Assembly (NCBI GenBank): GCA_943789165.1
Contig: CALSTB010000001.1
Location: 397,113-461,112 of the forward strand
Length of the DNA: 64,000 bases
Source of the DNA: an uncultured Bacteroidia bacterium
GTDB taxonomy: Bacteria; Bacteroidota; Bacteroidia; NS11-12g; UBA9320
Reading direction: 5' to 3'
Below, piece by piece: positions 114 through 11,315 of the stretch (the stretch's first letter is position 1; each line of letters begins with the position of its first letter). The notes beneath the pieces were generated by a model. The model made no database searches and was not told where the DNA came from. It was given only the letters and a program-made list of their open reading frames with translations. A program made the position numbers and the translations under genes.

Positions 114-1214
114 TTGTCAGAAAGATCTGACATACTGAAGTTTTTTAAAGTCAGAAGGATTCTTATCCCTCTGATTCTAGGATTTGGTGTATCCGCTTAT
201 TTCCTGTTCTGGAATAACGAAGGCATCACAGGTGTATCCGAAATTGCATGGTCTAAAGGCGCATACATTTGGCTATTAGCCGCTGCCGGTTTAATGGTCG
301 TTCGCGACCTTGGCTATATTATCCGGCTGAGAATCTTATCGGAAAAAGAACTTACTTGGAAACAGTGCTTTCAAATTATCATGTTATGGGAATTTGCCTC
401 GGCTGTATCTCCTGGGGCTATTGGTGGCACAGCAGCAGCAGTTGTCATCATGGCTCAAGAAAGAATGAAGACAGGTTTAACCACTGCAATTGTTCTGGTC
501 ACATCGTTTTTAGATGAACTCTATTATATGATTATGACGCCTATTGCATTTTGGGCAGTAATGAACACGTCTTTGTTTCCAACGTTTCAAAATGTAGGTT
601 TCGACAACGTAATCAATACCGGCAACTTAAGAACCTTGTTTTGGAGTGGGTATATCTTCCTTTTGATTTGGACTATTTTCTTAGCTTTTGCGCTCTTTAT
701 CAAACCCGAAATATGTCGAGGTTTGATTATGTCTATCGTGAAACTACCTTTCCTTAAAAGGTTTAGTAGACGCGCAAATAGGTTTAGCGATGACCTATTG
801 GTGGCTTCTAAAGAATTCAGGTCTAAACCTAAAAAGTTTTGGATCAAAAGTATGGGAGCAACGTTTGTTACTTGGACAGCCCGATTTTTGGTAATCAACT
901 GTTTGATTATGTTGTTGAGCACCGTTGAAGCAAATGAGCATTGGGTCATTTTCGGCAAACAATTGGTCATGTGGATTTTGATGATGATTGCGTTAACTCC
1001 CGGTGCAAGTGGGGTAGCTGAGTTTATTTTTCCAGCCTTTATGGGACCGTATTTACCTACCAAACAGGTCTCCAATCAATTGTCGATTCTATGGCGTGTG
1101 CTGACCTACTACCCGTATATATTGATAGGCATTATGGTATTGCCGATATGGCTTAAAAGAGTAGGTATTGAAGAACGTTTTAGGCGATTACGCCTCCGCA
1201 AGAAGCGAGGATAA
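114..1214 (+). CDS. UPF0104 / lysylphosphatidylglycerol synthase TM region (flippase-like) integral membrane protein
   Basis: 366 aa, TTG start, many hydrophobic segments, GAIGGTAAAVVIMAQE and TPGASGVAEF motifs typical of the family. Confidence 0.75.
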   Translation: MSERSDILKFFKVRRILIPLILGFGVSAYFLFWNNEGITGVSEIAWSKGAYIWLLAAAGLMVVRDLGYIIRLRILSEKELTWKQCFQIIMLWEFASAVSPGAIGGTAAAVVIMAQERMKTGLTTAIVLVTSFLDELYYMIMTPIAFWAVMNTSLFPTFQNVGFDNVINTGNLRTLFWSGYIFLLIWTIFLAFALFIKPEICRGLIMSIVKLPFLKRFSRRANRFSDDLLVASKEFRSKPKKFWIKSMGATFVTWTARFLVINCLIMLLSTVEANEHWVIFGKQLVMWILMMIALTPGASGVAEFIFPAFMGPYLPTKQVSNQLSILWRVLTYYPYILIGIMVLPIWLKRVGIEERFRRLRLRKKRG

Positions 1215-1550
1215 CGCTTCAACATTTAACGGCTTTTCCCAAAGCTTAATTTGGTCGTGTAAACCTTTGTACTTCTCGCGCAATTCTTCATGAACACTTG
1301 CAGTAAGCACAATCATCAATGGCAAATCATCTTGTTTACATTCGATTATTTTCTCTAAAAACCCATAGCCTGAAATTTCTGGCATTTGGTTGTCTACGAT
1401 GATCACGTCAATCTCCTTTGAACACAACTCGTCTAAGGCAGCCAAAGGATTTAAATAGCTGCTAATTTCGGCAGTGATAGACGATGTTTCAAGTAGTTTG
1501 GTGTTTACAAAAATGTCAATTTCGTTATCATCAATTAGAGCTATTCGCAT
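1188..1550 (-). CDS. single-domain response regulator (REC only)
   Basis: 120 aa; IALIDDNEID, VDNQMPEISGYGF, VLTAS, WEKPL: receiver-domain acidic pocket, phospho-Asp, Thr/Ser and Lys. Confidence 0.85.
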   Translation of the reverse strand: MRIALIDDNEIDIFVNTKLLETSSITAEISSYLNPLAALDELCSKEIDVIIVDNQMPEISGYGFLEKIIECKQDDLPLMIVLTASVHEELREKYKGLHDQIKLWEKPLNVEALSSLLAEA

Positions 1551-2634
1551 GGAATTCAGATTGGTTATTTGGTATAAAAATATTAAAACTTGTTCCTTCT
1601 CCTGGAATAGAAGTTACGTCAATTGTGCCGTTCATATTTTCTACGGCCTGTTTAACTAGATATAGGCTGATATCTTGGTTATTTCCTTTCGACAGAATGA
1701 GTTCAAAAAGGCCATTGAGTTGTTCGTTTTCGATCCCAATATCATCATCTGTAAACATGATTTGAACGCCAGATTTCCCATCAATGACTTCAATATCTAA
1801 GTTAATTTGTCCTTTATCTGGATTAATCTGGTCGCCAACGTAATTAAGTAAATTACTAATGACCAGCTGAATTCTAAATGGGTCGTTGTAAAACGATTCC
1901 GTCGCCCTGACAACCACATTCATATTAATGTTACTGAAGTCTTGGAAACTATCTAAGGCTTGTTTACAACGTTGAATGATTTCGTTAAAGTCAATTTTAT
2001 TTGAAACGCCTATGCGTTGGTCAGACTCATAATGCTCAATTATATTTCTTAATTGAAGATCAATCTGCATGATGCCTTTTTCTAAAATAGGCCAGTAATT
2101 CATGTTTTTATTATCACTGTCTTCAAGCTTGGCCAATCTTACAATGCCATGCATAGAAACCAGCGTGCTTCGCATTTCATTAGAAGCCTTATGGACAAAT
2201 TGATTTAAGCTATCATACGAGTTCTCAAGCTCTTTCTGGTGCTTGGCTATGTTTTTTCTAGCATCGTATAACTCTATGGCCGACAAAATGGTTTGTCTTA
2301 AATCATACTCGTTCCAAGGTTTACTCAAGAATCTATAAACACGCGCTTTGTTGATGGAATCCATCATAGCGGTTTGATCTGCAAAACCAGTGAGGATGAT
2401 ACGTATGATGTATGGGTGTTTTTCGAGAATGCTTTCAAAAAATTCAATACCCGTAATCCCTTTCATTAAGTAGTCACTGATAACCACTTTGACTTCAGGG
2501 TTGTCATCTAATTTTTGACGTCCTTCTTCAGCCGAAGTTGCTGTAATCACATTAAACTCTCGACGAAAGATAGCTCTGAAAGCGACCAAATTTGGTTCTT
2601 CATCATCAACGTATAATAGGTATTGCTTATTCAC
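1531..2634 (-). CDS. response regulator receiver fused to histidine-kinase-like ATPase domain
   Basis: N-terminal REC (YVDDEEPNL, SDYLMKGITG, LTGFAD, SKPW); C-terminal HATPase-like region (VISNLLNYVGDQ, GEGTSFNIFIP). Confidence 0.85.
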   Translation of the reverse strand: MNKQYLLYVDDEEPNLVAFRAIFRREFNVITATSAEEGRQKLDDNPEVKVVISDYLMKGITGIEFFESILEKHPYIIRIILTGFADQTAMMDSINKARVYRFLSKPWNEYDLRQTILSAIELYDARKNIAKHQKELENSYDSLNQFVHKASNEMRSTLVSMHGIVRLAKLEDSDNKNMNYWPILEKGIMQIDLQLRNIIEHYESDQRIGVSNKIDFNEIIQRCKQALDSFQDFSNINMNVVVRATESFYNDPFRIQLVISNLLNYVGDQINPDKGQINLDIEVIDGKSGVQIMFTDDDIGIENEQLNGLFELILSKGNNQDISLYLVKQAVENMNGTIDVTSIPGEGTSFNIFIPNNQSEFHANSSN

Positions 2635-4750
2635 TTGTTACCGGTAATTCAATTGTAAATGTGGTTCCTACGTTTGGTTCGCTTTCTACGGAAATATGTC
2701 CATTGTGTTTTTCCATTATTCCGTAAGTAATGGAAAGACCTAATCCTGTTCCTTTACCCACGTCTTTCGTGGTGAAGAATGGATCAAAGATGCTATTTTT
2801 TACTTCTTCCGGCATTCCACAGCCGTTGTCTGCAATAGTAATGACTACCTTGTCGTCGACATGCATAGTTTTAACCGTAAGAACACCCTGGGTTGGGTCT
2901 TCATATCGATCCCTAATTGCGTCAATGGCATTGTCTATCAAATTCATAAAAACTTGATTCAGTTTACCAAGATAACATTTTATATGCGGTATTGACCCAA
3001 GTTCAATTACGGTTTCGATATCTTTCATCTCACTTTTTAAGATGGTAATGGTAGATTGGATACCATTATTGATGTCAGCACTTTGTGCCTCATCGTCATC
3101 GGTTCTTGAGAAATTCTTTAGTCCGGTAACAATTTCAGAAGTTCGTTTTGCGCCTTCTTCAATGCCACCAAGCAGCTCGTGCATCTCTTTAATAGCATAA
3201 TCAATATCCAACTCCTCTTCCTGAGTCAGGAGTGCTTTCATCTCAGGTAAGTCACTATCTTTAGCAAATTCCTTGTATCCATTTAGGATGGTTAATATGT
3301 CCCCCAAATCCTGTCTTAACGGTTCAACGTTAGAAGACACATAATTGATAGGATTGTTTATTTCGTGGGCAATACCAGCCGTTAGTTGACCAAGCGACGC
3401 CATTTTTTCGGCCTCAACTAGGTGGCCTTGTGTCGATTTTAGGTTGGAGAGGGTGTCTTGTAAATCCAAGTTCATTACCTCCAATTCTTCTGTACGTTTT
3501 TTAACCTTTTCTTCTAAGACCTTATTTTGATTTCTTGTTAAATCGTTATTCTTCTTCACTTCCATCAACATCAACCTTTGTGACTCCTCACGTTGTTTTT
3601 TAAGCATGTTGATTCTGTCAGCTAGTGCAAACGAAAGCAGTACTGTTTCAATTGCAGCGCCTATAGGCATCGAATAGTTGGTCAAAAGACTATAACTCAA
3701 AATGTTTAAGCTACGCATGACATAGAGTATCACCCCAATTAAAAAGATGGTCCAAGCAACCAAAACGAACTTGGCTGAGCTTACTTTCCTTCTCGTTAAT
3801 ACAGCACAAATGGTAATAATGACCAGCGCCGACACCATGCCATTGGCGTTTAGAATAATAGAGGCTATTGCTGTTTGGCCAATTAATGAAAAGCCAATAC
3901 CAATCACACTGACTGCTATAAATACATTGATGGCCCAAATGGACCAAGGCATGTTTCGTTTTAGATTGATAAAACGCGACATGAATATCAGTCCGAAAAT
4001 GATGGATAACAGCGGGAATATGACGACTGCATGGTCTGGCCAGAAATTAGAATTAGGCCAGAAAAATTTATTCGCATACCCTACCAAAGACGACTGCCCA
4101 ATGAAAAGTGGTAGGATATTAATTACATAAAAGAAATAGATACTCGTTCTAAGAGATAAGAAGAGAAACAGGTTGTACAGGATCATTACCGCTAGAATTC
4201 CAGCGAATAGTCCAAAAAGCGTTTCACGCACTTGACCTTTACTCTGTATGGTTTGCGTGGAACTGACATGTATGGGTATTACCAGCTCATCTTGTCCTTT
4301 AACCTTAATATACACTTCCTTTGTTTGACCAGGTTTGATAGGCATTTTAAAGATAGGTTTCGGATCTTTGATCGCTCTATCTGAAAATTTAGTGAGGTCG
4401 GAAACCACTTGAACTTGATCATCGAAGTACAATTCGACAATATCTGTATTGGTTTGGCCAATTTCAAACATCAGTTCATTGACAGTCGTACCATTTTGTA
4501 CAGTGGTTTTTAACCAGTACGTGCTTTTTGTGAAGCCGAAATTAAAAACGTCCATTTCGTTTAGTAGAAACTGATCTGGGCTAACAGCCTTTACATCTTG
4601 GATGGTCAATTTGCCCTTTTTGTCTTCAAGGTAGACAAAACTTCTACTTCTTAAATCGTAAGAAGACTCATCCTCAATTTTCAAGAACTGTGCGCGTACA
4701 GAGTTTGTAAGCAAACAACCGAATAAAAGAATGACAAGTCGCTTCATCAT
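2627..4750 (-). CDS. 7TMR-DISM sensor histidine kinase
   Basis: 707 aa; signal peptide, extracellular 7TMR-DISMED2-like domain, seven hydrophobic helices, HisKA ([13 protein letters not shown]), HATPase ([25 protein letters not shown]). Confidence 0.9.
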
Positions 4751-5469
4751 GAGTCGATATTTAAATTAAATGATAAATTTAGTTTTAGTTGGTTGACAAC
4801 AATCTTTCGTTTGAGGTTGGTGTCTTCTCTGAGCAAGGCTACAAACGCCTGCTCCTCAGACCCCGAAGTTGGTAAGTCATCACAATCACCAATCATCACT
4901 ACACGTGCTATGTACTTTTCAGTTGGGTAGTTAAAACCACCTTTGTTTCCAAACTGTTTTTGAATTTCAAATCCAGCCGGTGAAAACAAGAACATACTGT
5001 AGTCGGAAGCCAAGCCATACAATTTGTGTATACCAAGCTGAGGCAGTAATGCTATTGACGAATTCACCAAAATCCAACTGATGCCATAGCCTCGGATAGT
5101 TTTCGAATTCCATAATCCGCATTGTTCGCCACAACCCAATTCAGTGTACTTGGTTATTTCATCACTAACAGTCGGATCGATTTTGGAGACACCTTCCTCC
5201 ATTGGCAAAAGATGTACGCCATCGGCTTTGTGAATACGAATACCACCCATCATCTCATTATCCCGCATGGCAACGATGCAATATGCGTTCGGGTTTTTCG
5301 TCCAGGTTGGATTACTGGACTTCACAGATGTCACTCCATAATCTTTTAAGACATTAATATGCCCCTCAAGATATTCCTTGCACAACTCGGGGTAATCTAC
5401 CGCCCTAAAAGACAATATTTCAAACGTCGTTGCCTGGAGTGTTTTTACGTTTTTTAACCCAATATTCAT
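4747..5469 (-). CDS. GNAT-like acyltransferase, possibly N-acyl amino acid/autoinducer-synthase-like
   Basis: 240 aa; acyltransferase-like layout (YCIVAMRDNEMMGGIRIH..., LYGLASDYSMFLFSPAGFEIQKQFGN). ATGA overlaps with both neighbours. Confidence 0.5.
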   Translation of the reverse strand: MNIGLKNVKTLQATTFEILSFRAVDYPELCKEYLEGHINVLKDYGVTSVKSSNPTWTKNPNAYCIVAMRDNEMMGGIRIHKADGVHLLPMEEGVSKIDPTVSDEITKYTELGCGEQCGLWNSKTIRGYGISWILVNSSIALLPQLGIHKLYGLASDYSMFLFSPAGFEIQKQFGNKGGFNYPTEKYIARVVMIGDCDDLPTSGSEEQAFVALLREDTNLKRKIVVNQLKLNLSFNLNIDS

Positions 5470-7718
5470 TCTATTTCTTCAAAAAATAAATGTTCGTTTA
5501 TATCACGCCTCAAAGAGCGTGTCTCTATCTCTTTCCCTTTGAACAGTCTAAATAGGAATATTTCGCCTCGCTGATCATCAAGGTTAAGTATGTCCTTAAA
5601 TTCCGCTCTAATGTTTAACAACTCATTTCGAAACGGCTTCAATTGTTCATCGTCATTGTCATGTGCAAACCGATTAAAAATAAAAGTCGACGGACTAATA
5701 GGATGAAATCCTAAGTTGAGCTCGGTTGCTTTTAACCATGCCCTTTGCAAAGCGCGTCCGCCTTCGAAATAATCCTTACGAGTGCCCGATGGCATAGAGA
5801 TAAAGCCAATGCGTTCGGTGTTTTTAATTGCCTTTCGCATCATGGTTTCAAAACCAGTACCTAGGCCCCAGTCTCTTAGTTGCCTTATGACTTTATAATT
5901 TTTCGAAACGTATAGACCAGCCTTTTCTGTTTCTGTTAAGTCTATAGTTCTTAAGTCAATTCCATCCTTGGTGGATTCAGCTTCCTCAACTGTCCAGCGT
6001 ATTTCATCAATAAAATCGGTATGACCTCTGTCGGTCATTAAACGAATTCTTTCGACGGCACATAGTACTTCACCGAGTTGTTCTTTTTTATCCGTAATCC
6101 ATGTAAGTTGAGCGCCAGGGATCTGTTCTGATGCTTCTTGAATTAAACCAAAATCGTCTTTGGGAATTGGCTCAAGTTCTCCCAACATTCTATTAGTTCC
6201 TCTAGCTCGTATGTGTGAATACAGATTTAAATCATATTCGTTTAGCATGGCGGTTGGCTCAAAATCGATGACGGCAACTAGTGGGTTTTTTTCTTCAAAT
6301 ACAAAATGGTATCGACCCTTGAGACCAAGTTTATTTGCCCCAATTATGATGTTTTCGATAGCAGCACCAAAACCGACCATCCCTCCTAGAAAGTTATAGT
6401 CTAGGAACGAGTTGGCTTGCGCATGATCTACAAAAGCGAAAATTTGATTTTTCTTAGCGTACCAGCGCCAGGGCTGCATATTACCGCCAGATGGAGCCGT
6501 TTGTGCAAGTTCAACAAGTTCATGAATCTGCTTTTTGTTTAATTCGACGCCGTTGGATTTTGTATATCCGTTTAATATCTGCACCATTTGGTCTAAACTC
6601 AAATGAGTTTGTTTATCGTAGACAAATGGTTTTTGTTCAGGTGAGGTTTCAGTGAGTTTTTCTTCAATATCAAAATAGAACCTGCCAGACTTTATTTGCT
6701 CGGACAATAGGATCCTTCGGATAGTATCGCTTACGATACCGCCTCCGAAAGTGACCGAGCTTGCAAGCTGTGGCCATGTACTAACTGATTGTTCAATTTC
6801 CAACATGGATGCCCGTAGTAATGGGCTTGTATCGTCTATTCCAATCATGTCAAGCATGTATGGAACTTTATCTTCATTTGTTTTTAACGTCTTGAGCTTG
6901 GCAACATCCAAACCTTGAACCAAGCCGTGCAGAATTGGTCTGTCTGGCTCTTTGTCGAAACGCTCAATGTCTAGCATTGCACGATCATTGGTCTCCATAA
7001 CCACCGGAATACCAAGTTCTTTCGCTTTCTGACGGGCAATTATTTTTATATCAAGGCCATCACATTCTTCCACGAGGGCATCCAGTGTGCCGTTTAAAGT
7101 GAAGAAGTCATCAATATTCTCTTCCGTTATTCCATTTTCATAAACGGTCACTTTCAAGTAGGGATCAATCTCAGCAATTTCACGAGCGACAATTACGGCT
7201 TTGTTAATACCGATATTGATGAGGTGGGTTCTCACTCGGTTGAGATTGCTCAAATCAATTTCATCAAAGTCCGCCAAACGTATTTCACCGAACATCCGTT
7301 ACATTGCCATGGTTACTGCAACCGTTTGTCCGACAGATAAGCCAATCACTCCGACTATTTTTTTTCGAAGTGTTTGTTGTTGGGCTTCAGTAATCTTGTA
7401 TTTGTTCCGATTCGTCCTAATTTCAACGAATTCCTCTTCAGGAAGTAGGTGAATTAATGTGTTATTCCATGGGTAATGAACCCAGTTGCCAATTGAATCT
7501 TGGCTTCTACCGCTTAAGTAATCCTCAATTAAATGTTGATATATTTCGGGATTCTCCTTGAATTTGACTTTTGGATTGCGGCAGTTTACCAATTCTTTTA
7601 GCTGATTTTCGATGGTATCAAAAATTTGAATTCCGGGCGTTTGCTTTATTTTTTCTAAAACATCAAGCGCCGCAACGCCTTGCGATAGGGAGATTATATG
7701 TGGGTGGTAGGAATACAA
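5466..7718 (-). pseudogene. Rv1355c-like protein: ThiF/HesA E1-type Rossmann domain fused to a nitroreductase-like domain, interrupted by an in-frame TAA at 7301-7299
   Basis: ORF 7299..7718 ends GVIGLSVGQTVAVTMAM*. ORF 5466..7295 resumes in the same frame two codons later (CGG ATG: R-MFGEIRLADFDEIDLSNLNRVRT). Together they rebuild an E1-like nucleotide-binding domain. The C-terminal half has a nitroreductase motif (LAQTAPSGGNMQPWRW). Confidence 0.75.
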
Positions 7719-7970
7719 TTACTAATCTTCTTTCGTGTGAAGATACTTAAGTACAAGCAGAATAGCGGTAATCACTTCAGTACAAGGACTTTAAATATGT
7801 ACCCTATAGTAGACAATAATAAAATGGCTATTACTACCACATTTTTAAGTTTTGTTGAAGAAAAGTTGATAAATACAAAAACTTGGTTTACATTTGCTAA
7901 AGAATGTGCGGTGCATGTTCTACTTTTTTACTACTACTACTTAATTATAACTACATGAAAATTGTTGATC

Positions 7971-8432
7971 ATGAGCACGAAAATCTCTGTTCTGTACCTC
8001 GATGACGAGGTTGAAAATTTAAATTCATTTAACGCAAATTTCCGAAGAGAATTCAACGTACACCTTGCTAATAGCATTGATGAGGCGTATTCTGTCATTG
8101 AATCTAAGGAAATACATGTTGTTTTGTCTGACCACAAGATGCCTCACATTACGGGTATCGAGTTTTTTGAAACTTTATGCAAAACCCATCCGTCCATCAC
8201 TCGTATCCTTTTAACAGGATGTTCTGAGTTAAATGTGGTTGTTGATGGCATTAACCGAGGTCAGATATTCAAGTATCTCTACAAGCCAATGAATGTTGAC
8301 TTGGTTCGTAAAACGGTTGAAGACGCTTACAAGAAGTTCTTAGAAGACAAAAAGAATCAAATGGAAGTTGTTGAGTTAATCGAAACAAACGAGAAACTTG
8401 AATTCATGTTAAGACAAAAGCTCATTAGCTAG
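7971..8432 (+). CDS. response regulator receiver protein, paralogous to the REC domain at 2634-2250
   Basis: VLYLDDEVENLNSFNANFRREFNV, SDHKMPHITGIEFFETL, LLTGCSE, YKP; ATG at 7971 preferred over the TTG at 7962. Confidence 0.85.
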   Translation: MSTKISVLYLDDEVENLNSFNANFRREFNVHLANSIDEAYSVIESKEIHVVLSDHKMPHITGIEFFETLCKTHPSITRILLTGCSELNVVVDGINRGQIFKYLYKPMNVDLVRKTVEDAYKKFLEDKKNQMEVVELIETNEKLEFMLRQKLIS

Positions 8433-8493
8433 TCTTTTACGAACTACTTATTCATAAACAAAATCGTTCCTTTGGGATTCCCAATGTATTTTT

Positions 8494-9594
8494 GTGGCTA
8501 ATACAAACGCATTGGATTTTAAAGAGACCAAGTTAGGATTTACCATTGGCGATGCAAATGGTGTGGGAATGGAAGTCATGTTACGTGCCTTCTCAACTCC
8601 TTATCTATTCAATCACTGTACTCCTGTTTTATATGGGGATGCAGAGGTGTTTAAGTTTTATTGCAACGCGTTAGAGTTAACTGACCTTAGATATAATCTT
8701 ATTACAGACACAAAAGACTGTGTACCGGATATGATTAATCTGAAACAAGTTACTTCCAACAAGGTGACTGTTACACCTGGTACTCCAAGCGAGGAAGCAG
8801 GTGCTTTGGCTTTAAAAGCAATTAATGCTGCTATTGAAGATATCAAAGTGGGTCAGATTGAGAACCTAGTGACGCTACCAATTGACAAAAGCACGATTCA
8901 ATCAGATTCATTCGATTTTGCTGGCCACACTGATTACTTGGCAAAGTCATTTGAAGTGGATGACTATATGATGATCTTGACCAGTGACGATTTAAAAGTT
9001 GGCGTGGTTACAGGACATATCCCAATCACTCAAGTTAGTCAGTCCTTGACTATTGAGAGAATTACCAATAAGATTCAAATCTTATTAGACTCATTACAGT
9101 TTGACTTTGGTGTTAGAAAACCTAAAATCGCTGTCTTAGGTCTTAACCCACACAGCGGTGATAACGGGTTAATTGGCAAAGAGGAGTTAGATATTATCAA
9201 ACCGGCCATTGATGGCTTCATTGAAGAAGGACATTTAGTTTTTGGTCCTTACTCAGCAGATGGGTTTTTTGGAACAAAAGGATATGAGCAGTTTGATGCG
9301 GTTTTGGCCATGTATCATGACCAAGGTTTGATTCCTTTCAAACAGATTTCATTTCACAATGGCGTGAACTATACCGCCGGTCTTCCAATTGTAAGAACCT
9401 CACCAGATCATGGGACAGCGTATGATTTGGCTGGCAAAGGGACAGCAGATATTGCGTCCCACGTAAGTGCCATATTTGAAGCCAAGAAAATTTACCTTAA
9501 TCGTTTGGAATCAAATGAGTTAAACAAGTCCCCATTGGCCTACAAATCACACAGAAGAGAAAAATTCAGCATCGGTGTTCCCAATCTGAAATAA
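8494..9594 (+). CDS. pdxA: 4-hydroxythreonine-4-phosphate dehydrogenase
   Basis: GFTIGDANGVGMEV, TLPIDK, HDQGLIPFK, GLPIVRTSPDHGTAYDLAGKG: PdxA signatures; GTG start. Confidence 0.95.
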   Translation: MANTNALDFKETKLGFTIGDANGVGMEVMLRAFSTPYLFNHCTPVLYGDAEVFKFYCNALELTDLRYNLITDTKDCVPDMINLKQVTSNKVTVTPGTPSEEAGALALKAINAAIEDIKVGQIENLVTLPIDKSTIQSDSFDFAGHTDYLAKSFEVDDYMMILTSDDLKVGVVTGHIPITQVSQSLTIERITNKIQILLDSLQFDFGVRKPKIAVLGLNPHSGDNGLIGKEELDIIKPAIDGFIEEGHLVFGPYSADGFFGTKGYEQFDAVLAMYHDQGLIPFKQISFHNGVNYTAGLPIVRTSPDHGTAYDLAGKGTADIASHVSAIFEAKKIYLNRLESNELNKSPLAYKSHRREKFSIGVPNLK

Positions 9595-9648
9595 AGTTCT
9601 TTTTTTCCACAAATTATGCTAATTTTGCCGACCCTTTTGGGAGTGAAG

Positions 9649-10167
9649 ATGGAGCGTAAAGATTTCACTATACAATTTGGTTCATTAAAGGAAGGATTTC
9701 ACGACTTTAAGTACCAATTAAACAACGAATTTTTTGCGTTAATAGAGCAAGAGTTGATCCGAGAAGGGGAGGTTAATGTTCTTTTAAATTTAGAGCGTTC
9801 TGAACGCCACATGTCTTGCAACTTTACCCTTGAGGGTTGGGTGCTTAAAACTTGTGACGTTTGTTTAAGTGAACTTCAATACCCGGTAAAATGTGTACAA
9901 CATTTACATATTAAAATTACCGACAAGGAAATTGAAGAAGAACCGGAGTTGATAAGCGTAGATAGTAACGCATATGAGTTGGATTTAACCAACCATTTGT
10001 TTGATTATGTTGCGTTGTCGTTGCCGATGAAACTTGAATGCAAGGATGCAATAAATCGAAAGAACTGCGACGAAGAAGTGTTAGAAATGTTAGCCGATTC
10101 AGAAGATGAAACAGATAATTCAGATCATCCTGAATGGCAAAAACTAAAAGAAATATTTAAAAACTGA
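9649..10167 (+). CDS. DUF177/YceD family protein
   Basis: Directly upstream of rpmF; TCDVCLSELQYPV and acidic C-terminus typical of DUF177. ATG at 9649 preferred because a TAATTTTG motif overlaps the longer ORF start (9616). Confidence 0.85.
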   Translation: MERKDFTIQFGSLKEGFHDFKYQLNNEFFALIEQELIREGEVNVLLNLERSERHMSCNFTLEGWVLKTCDVCLSELQYPVKCVQHLHIKITDKEIEEEPELISVDSNAYELDLTNHLFDYVALSLPMKLECKDAINRKNCDEEVLEMLADSEDETDNSDHPEWQKLKEIFKN

Positions 10168-10171
10168 TAGT

Positions 10172-10357
10172 ATGGCTCATCCAAAGAGAAAGATTTCCAG
10201 AACAAGGAGAGACAAAAGAAGAACCCACGACAAACTTGGGTTTAAGCAGCTTATTAAAGATCCTAAAACAGGTGAAGTGTCTCAATACCATCGTTTAAAC
10301 CTTGAAACAGGCATGTATCGAGGAATGAAGGTTATTGACGTAAACGAGCAAGCTTAA
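10172..10357 (+). CDS. rpmF: 50S ribosomal protein L32
   Basis: MAHPKRKISRTRRDKRRTHDKL. Confidence 0.97.
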   Translation: MAHPKRKISRTRRDKRRTHDKLGFKQLIKDPKTGEVSQYHRLNLETGMYRGMKVIDVNEQA

Positions 10358-10379
10358 GAATTTATTCTTAAACATTTTT

Positions 10380-11315
10380 ATGAAGATTGGGATAGACGTG
10401 ATGGGCGGGGATTTTGCCCCGAGTGAAACACTGAACGGTGTTATCAGCGCACTTTCTACGCCTGATTTAAGCGACGTTCAACTCACTCTGATCGGTGATC
10501 AATCCACCATAGAAAAGCATTTAAGTGCTCATATTGATCTTAGTCGGGTGGATATTGTTCACACCGAAGAGGTAATCGGTATGGCTGAGCATCCAACCCG
10601 TGCTATTTCGCAAAAAAGGAATTCTAGTATTAACGTAGGACTCAAGATGTTGGCCGAAGGGCACATTGATGGTTTTGCTGGTGCTGGAAATACAGGCGCA
10701 ATGATGGTCGGTGCCCTATATACGGTGAAAGCTATCGACGGAATCCTTAGACCTTCATTAACATCTCTTGTTCCAAAAATTGATGGAACAAACGGTTTGA
10801 TTTTAGACGTTGGCGCCAATGCCGATGTTAAACCTGATGTAATGGGGCAATTTGGTGTTTTAGGCTCACTGTATGCACAGTACGTTCTCGGAATTGAAAA
10901 TCCAAGAGTTGGATTGTTAAGTATCGGAGAGGAAAAAGAAAAGGGGAACATGTTAAATCAAGCGGTGTACCCAATTCTTGAAAACACTAGAGGAATAAAT
11001 TTTATCGGGAACGTTGAAGGGCGAGACCTTTTTTCTGATAAAGCGGATGTTATTGTTTGTGACGGATTCACTGGCAATATTGTCCTAAAAACATGCGAAG
11101 GCTTCTTTTATAAGTTAAAGAAACGTGGAATCAATGATGACTTCCTTGACCGCTTTAACTTTGAGTCGTACGGAGGTACTGCTATATTAGGAGTTAACAA
11201 ACCTGTTATTATTGGACATGGAATTTCGAAAGCAAACACATTTGTGAATATGATTCGCTTAACAAAACAAGTGGTGCTTTCAAATCTTATCCAGAAAATC
11301 AAAGCAAGTCTTTAA
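10380..11315 (+). CDS. plsX: phosphate acyltransferase PlsX
   Basis: IGIDVMGGDFAPSETL, GFAGAGNTGAMMVGAL, CDGFTGNIVLKTCEG. Confidence 0.97.
   Translation: MKIGIDVMGGDFAPSETLNGVISALSTPDLSDVQLTLIGDQSTIEKHLSAHIDLSRVDIVHTEEVIGMAEHPTRAISQKRNSSINVGLKMLAEGHIDGFAGAGNTGAMMVGALYTVKAIDGILRPSLTSLVPKIDGTNGLILDVGANADVKPDVMGQFGVLGSLYAQYVLGIENPRVGLLSIGEEKEKGNMLNQAVYPILENTRGINFIGNVEGRDLFSDKADVIVCDGFTGNIVLKTCEGFFYKLKKRGINDDFLDRFNFESYGGTAILGVNKPVIIGHGISKANTFVNMIRLTKQVVLSNLIQKIKASL

Follow-up and report, generated by a model that had tools for sequence, protein, structure and literature searches.

What brings a pair of biosynthetic enzymes into the same operon as a membrane sensor kinase and its response regulators is the question raised by this locus, which lies in a stretch of 64,000 nucleotides (the window) from an uncultured Bacteroidia bacterium. 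A sequence-only reading had described five minus-strand genes, packed with overlaps, and had proposed that the enzymes make or modify a small signal which is sensed by the kinase. The five genes and their order were recovered by checking the open reading frames of the window, together with the overlaps of 4 bp between the end of the TrzS-like gene and the start of the acyltransferase gene (5466-5469), 4 bp between the end of the latter and the start of the kinase gene (4747-4750), 8 bp between the genes of the kinase and the REC-HATPase protein (2627-2634), and 20 bp between this gene and that of the REC protein (1531-1550). The divergent REC gene was also confirmed upstream, starting at the ATG at 7971 (the longest reading frame runs from 7962), and the domain calls held throughout, that is, the Rv1355c family (ThiF and nitroreductase), a weak GNAT, 7TMR-DISMED2 with 7TM and HisKA/HATPase, REC with HATPase, REC, and, in the divergent gene, REC (Table 1). 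While genes, order, strands, overlaps, and domains stood, the ThiF-nitroreductase gene had been taken as intact, and an in-frame TAA was overlooked. The arrangement of the operon is far beyond chance, given that the tight packing is kept in the relatives, where successive genes are separated by median gaps of 2, -4, 10, and -4 bp, and the gene set is kept across the class. The scan for promoters and terminators found no excess over shuffled sequences, and made no promoter call above the shuffled background in the intergenic region.

Table 1. Coordinates of the trz operon and adjoining features, in positions of the window.
Feature	Position	Strand	Basis
TrzS-like gene, Rv1355c family (ThiF cyclase fused to a nitroreductase-type flavin oxidase), with an in-frame stop inside	5466..7718	-	NF005901 full-length match
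In-frame TAA stop codon, just past the ThiF nucleotide-binding loop	7299..7301	-	Genome search and alignment with relatives
TrzA-like acyltransferase, 240 aa, FeeM / AHL-synthase fold (predicted)	4747..5469	-	AlphaFold2 model, Foldseek
7TMR-DISM histidine kinase, 707 aa, candidate receptor	2627..4750	-	Pfam; model of the periplasmic part
REC and histidine-kinase-like protein (REC-kinase), 367 aa	1531..2634	-	Pfam; alignment with relatives
Single-domain response regulator (REC), 120 aa, without an output domain	1188..1550	-	Pfam
Divergent single-domain response regulator (REC), conserved C-terminal tail	7971..8432	+	Pfam; alignment
Intergenic region between the divergent REC gene and the trz operon, presumed promoter region	7719..7970	.	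Position only

The family of the first enzyme is clear. In the profile search of the genome, the TrzS gene matched NF005901 with 764 bits (cut-off 476) over positions 11-718 of 722, and both parts of the split gene fall in the Rv1355c family (1.8e-31 for the N-terminal part and 1.7e-190 for the C-terminal part). A sulfur-carrier E1 of the thiamine or molybdopterin pathway was rejected for the ThiF part, for which the Rv1355c model is ahead by hundreds of bits, and a modified-peptide (azoline) pathway found no support, as the nitroreductase part belongs with the oxazolone oxidase family. Homologues of TrzS elsewhere have been shown to make N-acyl oxazolones (PMC12856293, PMC10404671), and the related tyrazolones are the products of OxzAB and TyzACB (PMC10404671). 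Compounds of this kind do not survive contact with acids or methanol (PMC12856293). The small acylated or peptidic product proposed earlier can be narrowed down, from the literature on the homologues, to N-acyl oxazolones (PMC12856293, PMC10404671).

The second enzyme, TrzA, can hardly be matched to characterised proteins by sequence, with a weak GNAT match in Pfam and no significant sequence hit in the PDB; homology to LuxI was thus rejected at the sequence level, and the fold search alone was informative. The AlphaFold2 model (pLDDT 92.3) has FeeM (2g0b) as its top Foldseek match, followed by BjaI (5w8e) and RpaI (6wn0), which are also, in the case of FeeM and BjaI, the published structural neighbours of TyzA. 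The comparison with LuxI and GNAT folds thus places the acyltransferase, by its predicted fold, with an N-acyl amino acid synthase (FeeM) and the AHL synthases, and with no housekeeping enzyme. The sequence identity to FeeM and the LuxI-type, CoA-dependent AHL synthases BjaI and RpaI is only about 10-15%, and the partner of TrzA is a membrane kinase, with no LuxR. As TrzA has both the predicted FeeM/BjaI-like GNAT fold and a position beside TrzS, and TrzS belongs to its family, we infer that the pair represents an oxazolone pathway.

The closest known systems are TrzAS of Mycobacterium and Rhodococcus (Rv1356c-Rv1355c), OxzAB of Pseudoalteromonas rubra, and TyzACB of M. tuberculosis, in which a member of the TrzS family adjoins an acyltransferase of the FeeM/BjaI fold, according to the same two-enzyme logic as in the window (PMC12856293, PMC10404671). 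No kinase has been described in these pathways, whereas in the window the pair comes firmly linked with a 7TMR-DISM kinase and REC proteins. The trzAS genes of M. tuberculosis and the plasmid-borne trz loci of Rhodococcus lie near c-di-GMP genes instead of a kinase, and no kinase was seen at the plasmid-borne actinobacterial TrzS loci. In the Rhodococcus qingshengii plasmids (L114, L233, and L234), for example, a GGDEF gene is found near TrzS, with one gene between them, which agrees with the c-di-GMP neighbours in M. tuberculosis. In a Streptomyces plasmid (L113:5128-6996), a ThiF protein overlaps a beta-ketoacyl-ACP synthase III gene and has a long extra N-terminal region, which is possibly an acyltransferase.

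The reading frame of TrzS in the window has 750 codons, with one TAA inside (genome search), and starts with the TTG at 7718, the aligned place at which L014, L015, and L016 also start, with the same residue. The stop falls in an alignment column that holds glutamate in the intact relatives, and separates an N-terminal part (7302-7718) from an ORF (5466-7295) that lacks the nucleotide-binding loop. Beyond the TAA, the frame is open down to 5466, as are the downstream genes. With the frame broken only once and clean elsewhere, the stop is either a nonsense mutation of recent date or an error in the assembly. The adenylation aspartate of the ECD motif is aligned in all the TrzS sequences, and would correspond to D217 of M. 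smegmatis TrzS, when traced through the Mycolicibacterium homologue. The relatives and a second copy on contig 8 of the same genome have an intact reading frame, but the window copy does not, and TrzS is probably non-functional at this locus. The oxazolone step has thus probably been lost here, or is rescued by the second TrzS copy, while the TrzA and receptor genes are intact.

The second, intact paralogue (L013:9637-11958) is accompanied by neither TrzA nor the kinase. Its neighbours, both there and in L104, are a GCS2-like ligase (which in L013 carries CBS domains), an ABC transporter, and a mechanosensitive-channel gene, a context which is perhaps that of another amide-derived oxazolone pathway. 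In a further genome (G011), TrzS is absent from the locus (L020), and the only copy lies on another contig. Together with the stop in the window, this would be consistent with receivers in which the full product is no longer made at the locus, although two cases prove nothing.

The candidate receptor has DISMED2, 7TM, and HATPase_c above the Pfam cut-offs, with HisKA and HATPase intact. The fold search matched the periplasmic part of its model to the sensor domain of RetS, below which several carbohydrate-binding folds are listed for DISMED2. The architecture of DISMED2, 7TM, and kinase is shared with RetS and other 7TMR-DISM kinases, from which the window kinase differs in being tied to TrzA; RetS itself is a hybrid kinase, and is not known to have a linked synthase. 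The 7TM part of the model (3596-4690, minus strand) has a weak fold similarity (E about 3e-4 and weaker) to GPCRs and to Wntless, the carrier of an acylated protein, which was not used as evidence, given the low TM-score. On a sensor profile, the trz-linked kinases are set apart by their scores from the other DISM proteins, and in a quick tree, with some long branches, the background DISM proteins also fall mostly apart (13/15).

The linkage between enzymes and kinase was borne out by the gene neighbourhoods. TrzA is present in 76 of the 395 Bacteroidia genomes, and in 74 of these 76 the 7TMR-DISM sensor lies within 3.3 kb, so that the putative signal synthase is genetically tied to a sensor kinase, as in two-component quorum sensing. 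The two genomes without a nearby sensor have, in one case, a contig end, and in the other, a very divergent copy. Conversely, 73 of the 74 best sensor matches (at least 320 bits) are found beside TrzA, although linked copies had served to build the profile, and the 320-bit cut was set only afterwards, while the 74/76 figure is independent of the cut. The association has a Fisher p of about 8e-75, uncorrected for phylogeny. The sole high-scoring sensor without TrzA (L223:8228-10321, in G450) is not a kinase but a DISMED2-7TM-SpoIIE phosphatase. A scan of named genomes, with a tighter TrzA alignment, recovered 80 Bacteroidota loci, some of them cut by contig ends and some repeating earlier loci, and all 79 with a called TrzA run on into a DISM protein. 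Among the hosts are Pedobacter steynii, P. duraquae, P. panaciterrae, Sporocytophaga, Xanthocytophaga, and Fluviicola. At the locus of P. steynii DSM 19110 (L122, NZ_FNGY01000003.1), TrzS (5708-7999) is followed by TrzA (8001-8699), the kinase (8692-10848), and the genes of the REC-kinase and the REC protein. When 297 genomes from the phylum were sampled, only one of the 12 matches lay outside the class Bacteroidia. Ten TrzA-carrying genomes have between one and four DISM proteins each, the trz-linked one being the only DISM protein in four (G000, G006, G015, and G228).

Within the genus and family of the window (L014-L016), the full unit of TrzS, TrzA, DISM kinase, REC-kinase, REC, and divergent REC lies beside pdxA, and in another genus (L017-L019), the unit is complete at a different chromosomal place. 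Overall, the flanking genes form 62 clusters among 102 upstream flanks and 64 among 106 downstream, a diversity which indicates that the block has moved often and stayed whole. These observations bear on the possibility that enzymes and kinase were passed on together simply as neighbours, by chance or passive conservation of the operon. The wider neighbourhood (pdxA and the fab genes) is indeed also kept within the genus of the window, but the make-up of the unit is kept in many unrelated contexts, across TrzA proteins that are only about 30-40% identical, which makes passive co-inheritance extremely improbable.

Among the relatives, the acyltransferase and the kinase are the constant core, and the middle enzyme varies. 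The tailoring enzyme may be a TrzS fusion, a ThiF cyclase without the oxidase, a methyltransferase, or a FAD oxidase. A class-I methyltransferase lies between TrzA and the kinase in L215 and L217-L222, an ICMT-type carboxyl methyltransferase in L216, and a FAD_binding_4 oxidase in L180, L183, and L190, the last of which also has a short ThiF gene. In one locus (L179:4025-7045), TrzS and TrzA form a single fused protein of 1006 residues. The earlier view of the operon was right to tie the enzymes to the kinase, but missed this variability, as well as the loss of the histidine in the REC-HATPase protein.

In the quick tree of the sensors, five of the seven methyltransferase-type sensors form one supported group, while the loss of the oxidase domain is scattered. 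A single origin for each tailoring type was thus rejected, and the sensor clade follows the chemistry only partly. Given that the carboxylate of an N-acyl amino acid would be neutralised by cyclisation and by methyl-esterification alike, we infer that a neutral, membrane-permeant product is the decisive feature. Such a product need not travel between cells, and might act as a membrane lipid or a local cue that is sensed by the 7TM part of the kinase in autocrine feedback. The tryptazolones do accumulate in the cells, with the open acyl-tryptophan in the supernatant (PMC12856293), but the predicted fold of TrzA and the layout of the operon resemble those of diffusible-signal systems, and retention of the product seems improbable.

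By Pfam, no DNA-binding domain is present in any of the proteins of the unit, so that the response regulators would act by protein contact or phosphorelay. In the window, the alignment of the REC-kinase has an asparagine in place of the phospho-acceptor histidine, and the G2 box is gone. These changes are shared by the window genome, G003, G004, and G009, while most relatives, and most other genera, keep both the histidine and the G2 box. Despite the loss of kinase residues, the gene is well conserved, with 80% identity to L014 and L015, and the protein is probably a pseudokinase adaptor in these four genomes. By locus, the loss is conserved in the genus of the window (1531-2634; L014, L015, and L016), as well as in G009. 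The divergent REC protein, the gene of which adjoins the unit in 91 of 110 loci, has a strongly conserved C-terminal tail, NExLEFMLRQKLxS, which may be a docking segment.

It is also conceivable that the kinase senses another cue, such as envelope stress, a sugar, or the redox state, and that its REC partners time the synthesis of an oxazolone lipid which acts elsewhere, in the membrane, in antibiosis, or under stress. The conserved linkage would be expected equally in this case. Antibiotics can induce the production of oxazolones in some proteobacteria, for which a role in stress physiology has been suggested (PMC12856293), and the likeness of DISMED2 to the RetS sensor domain and carbohydrate-binding folds also suits a cue of this type. 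Response regulators without a DNA-binding domain would nevertheless be unusual in a dedicated pathway regulator, and the receptor stays while the chemistry changes, with the acyltransferase remaining beside it in 74 of 76 genomes. Control of the pathway by a separate cue is thus the most serious of the alternatives, albeit an unlikely one.

In favour of a signalling role, the layout of the unit matches that of the proven phcBSRQ quorum-sensing operon of Ralstonia, in which the synthase gene phcB comes first, followed by PhcS, PhcR, and PhcQ (PMC8578825). As in the trz unit, the operon encodes a synthase, a sensor kinase, a REC and kinase protein, and a REC-only protein, and neither of the last two has a DNA-binding domain (PMC8578825). 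The likeness is one of gene order and domain layout. In Ralstonia, PhcB makes a 3-hydroxy fatty acid methyl ester as the signal, whereas the window encodes an N-acyltransferase and a cyclase. A methyltransferase is present in some relatives of the trz unit, and absent from the window.

The locus is best explained as an instance of a module, widespread in the Bacteroidia, in which the biosynthesis of a small N-acyl amino-acid derivative is coupled to its own membrane receptor. TrzA would acylate an amino acid, which is probably aromatic, going by the substrates of its homologues, and the tailoring enzyme would then mask the carboxylate, TrzS (ThiF cyclase and flavin oxidase) leading to the oxazolone, and a cyclase alone, a methyltransferase, or a FAD oxidase taking this part in the relatives. 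The product would leave the cell or partition into the membrane, and bind the 7TMR-DISM kinase, which may then change the flow of phosphoryl groups to the REC-kinase, the REC protein, and the divergent REC protein. This model of a synthase and its receptor is the best supported, given the constant acyltransferase and receptor, the swapped tailoring, the near-perfect co-occurrence, and a layout like that of quorum sensing. The broken synthase gene of the window itself counts against it, as does the kinship of DISMED2 domains with carbohydrate-binding folds. Tryptazolones, moreover, were found in larger amounts within the cells than outside them, in the medium (PMC12856293), an unusual distribution for a signal that is secreted freely. 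On balance, a signalling unit that uses neutralised N-acyl amino acids is a somewhat better than even prospect.

The enzymes and the receptor domains belong to known families, and the search of the open-access literature turned up no mention of oxazolone enzymes coupled to a kinase. Few ligands of 7TMR-DISM receptors are known, and we are aware of no well-defined native autoinducer system in the Bacteroidota. The physiological role of the N-acyl oxazolones is itself regarded as a major unresolved question by workers in the field (PMC12856293).

A candidate receptor that adjoins the synthase in roughly a fifth of the sampled Bacteroidia genomes makes the role of the oxazolones, the ligands of the DISM receptors, and the autoinducers of the Bacteroidota testable together, in culturable Pedobacter, and the swapping of tailoring enzymes against a constant receptor provides a natural series for structure-activity work. 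Allelic exchange is established in a Pedobacter related to P. steynii (PMC12181424). The pairing of enzymes and sensor, seen in a large part of the class, speaks for a chemical signalling system that has so far gone unrecognised. The chances are about even that this is a family of cell-cell (or self-) signalling not previously recognised in the class, in which the 7TMR-DISM kinase would receive the neutral N-acyl amino-acid derivatives of its own operon, and lineages would change their dialect by swapping the tailoring enzyme.
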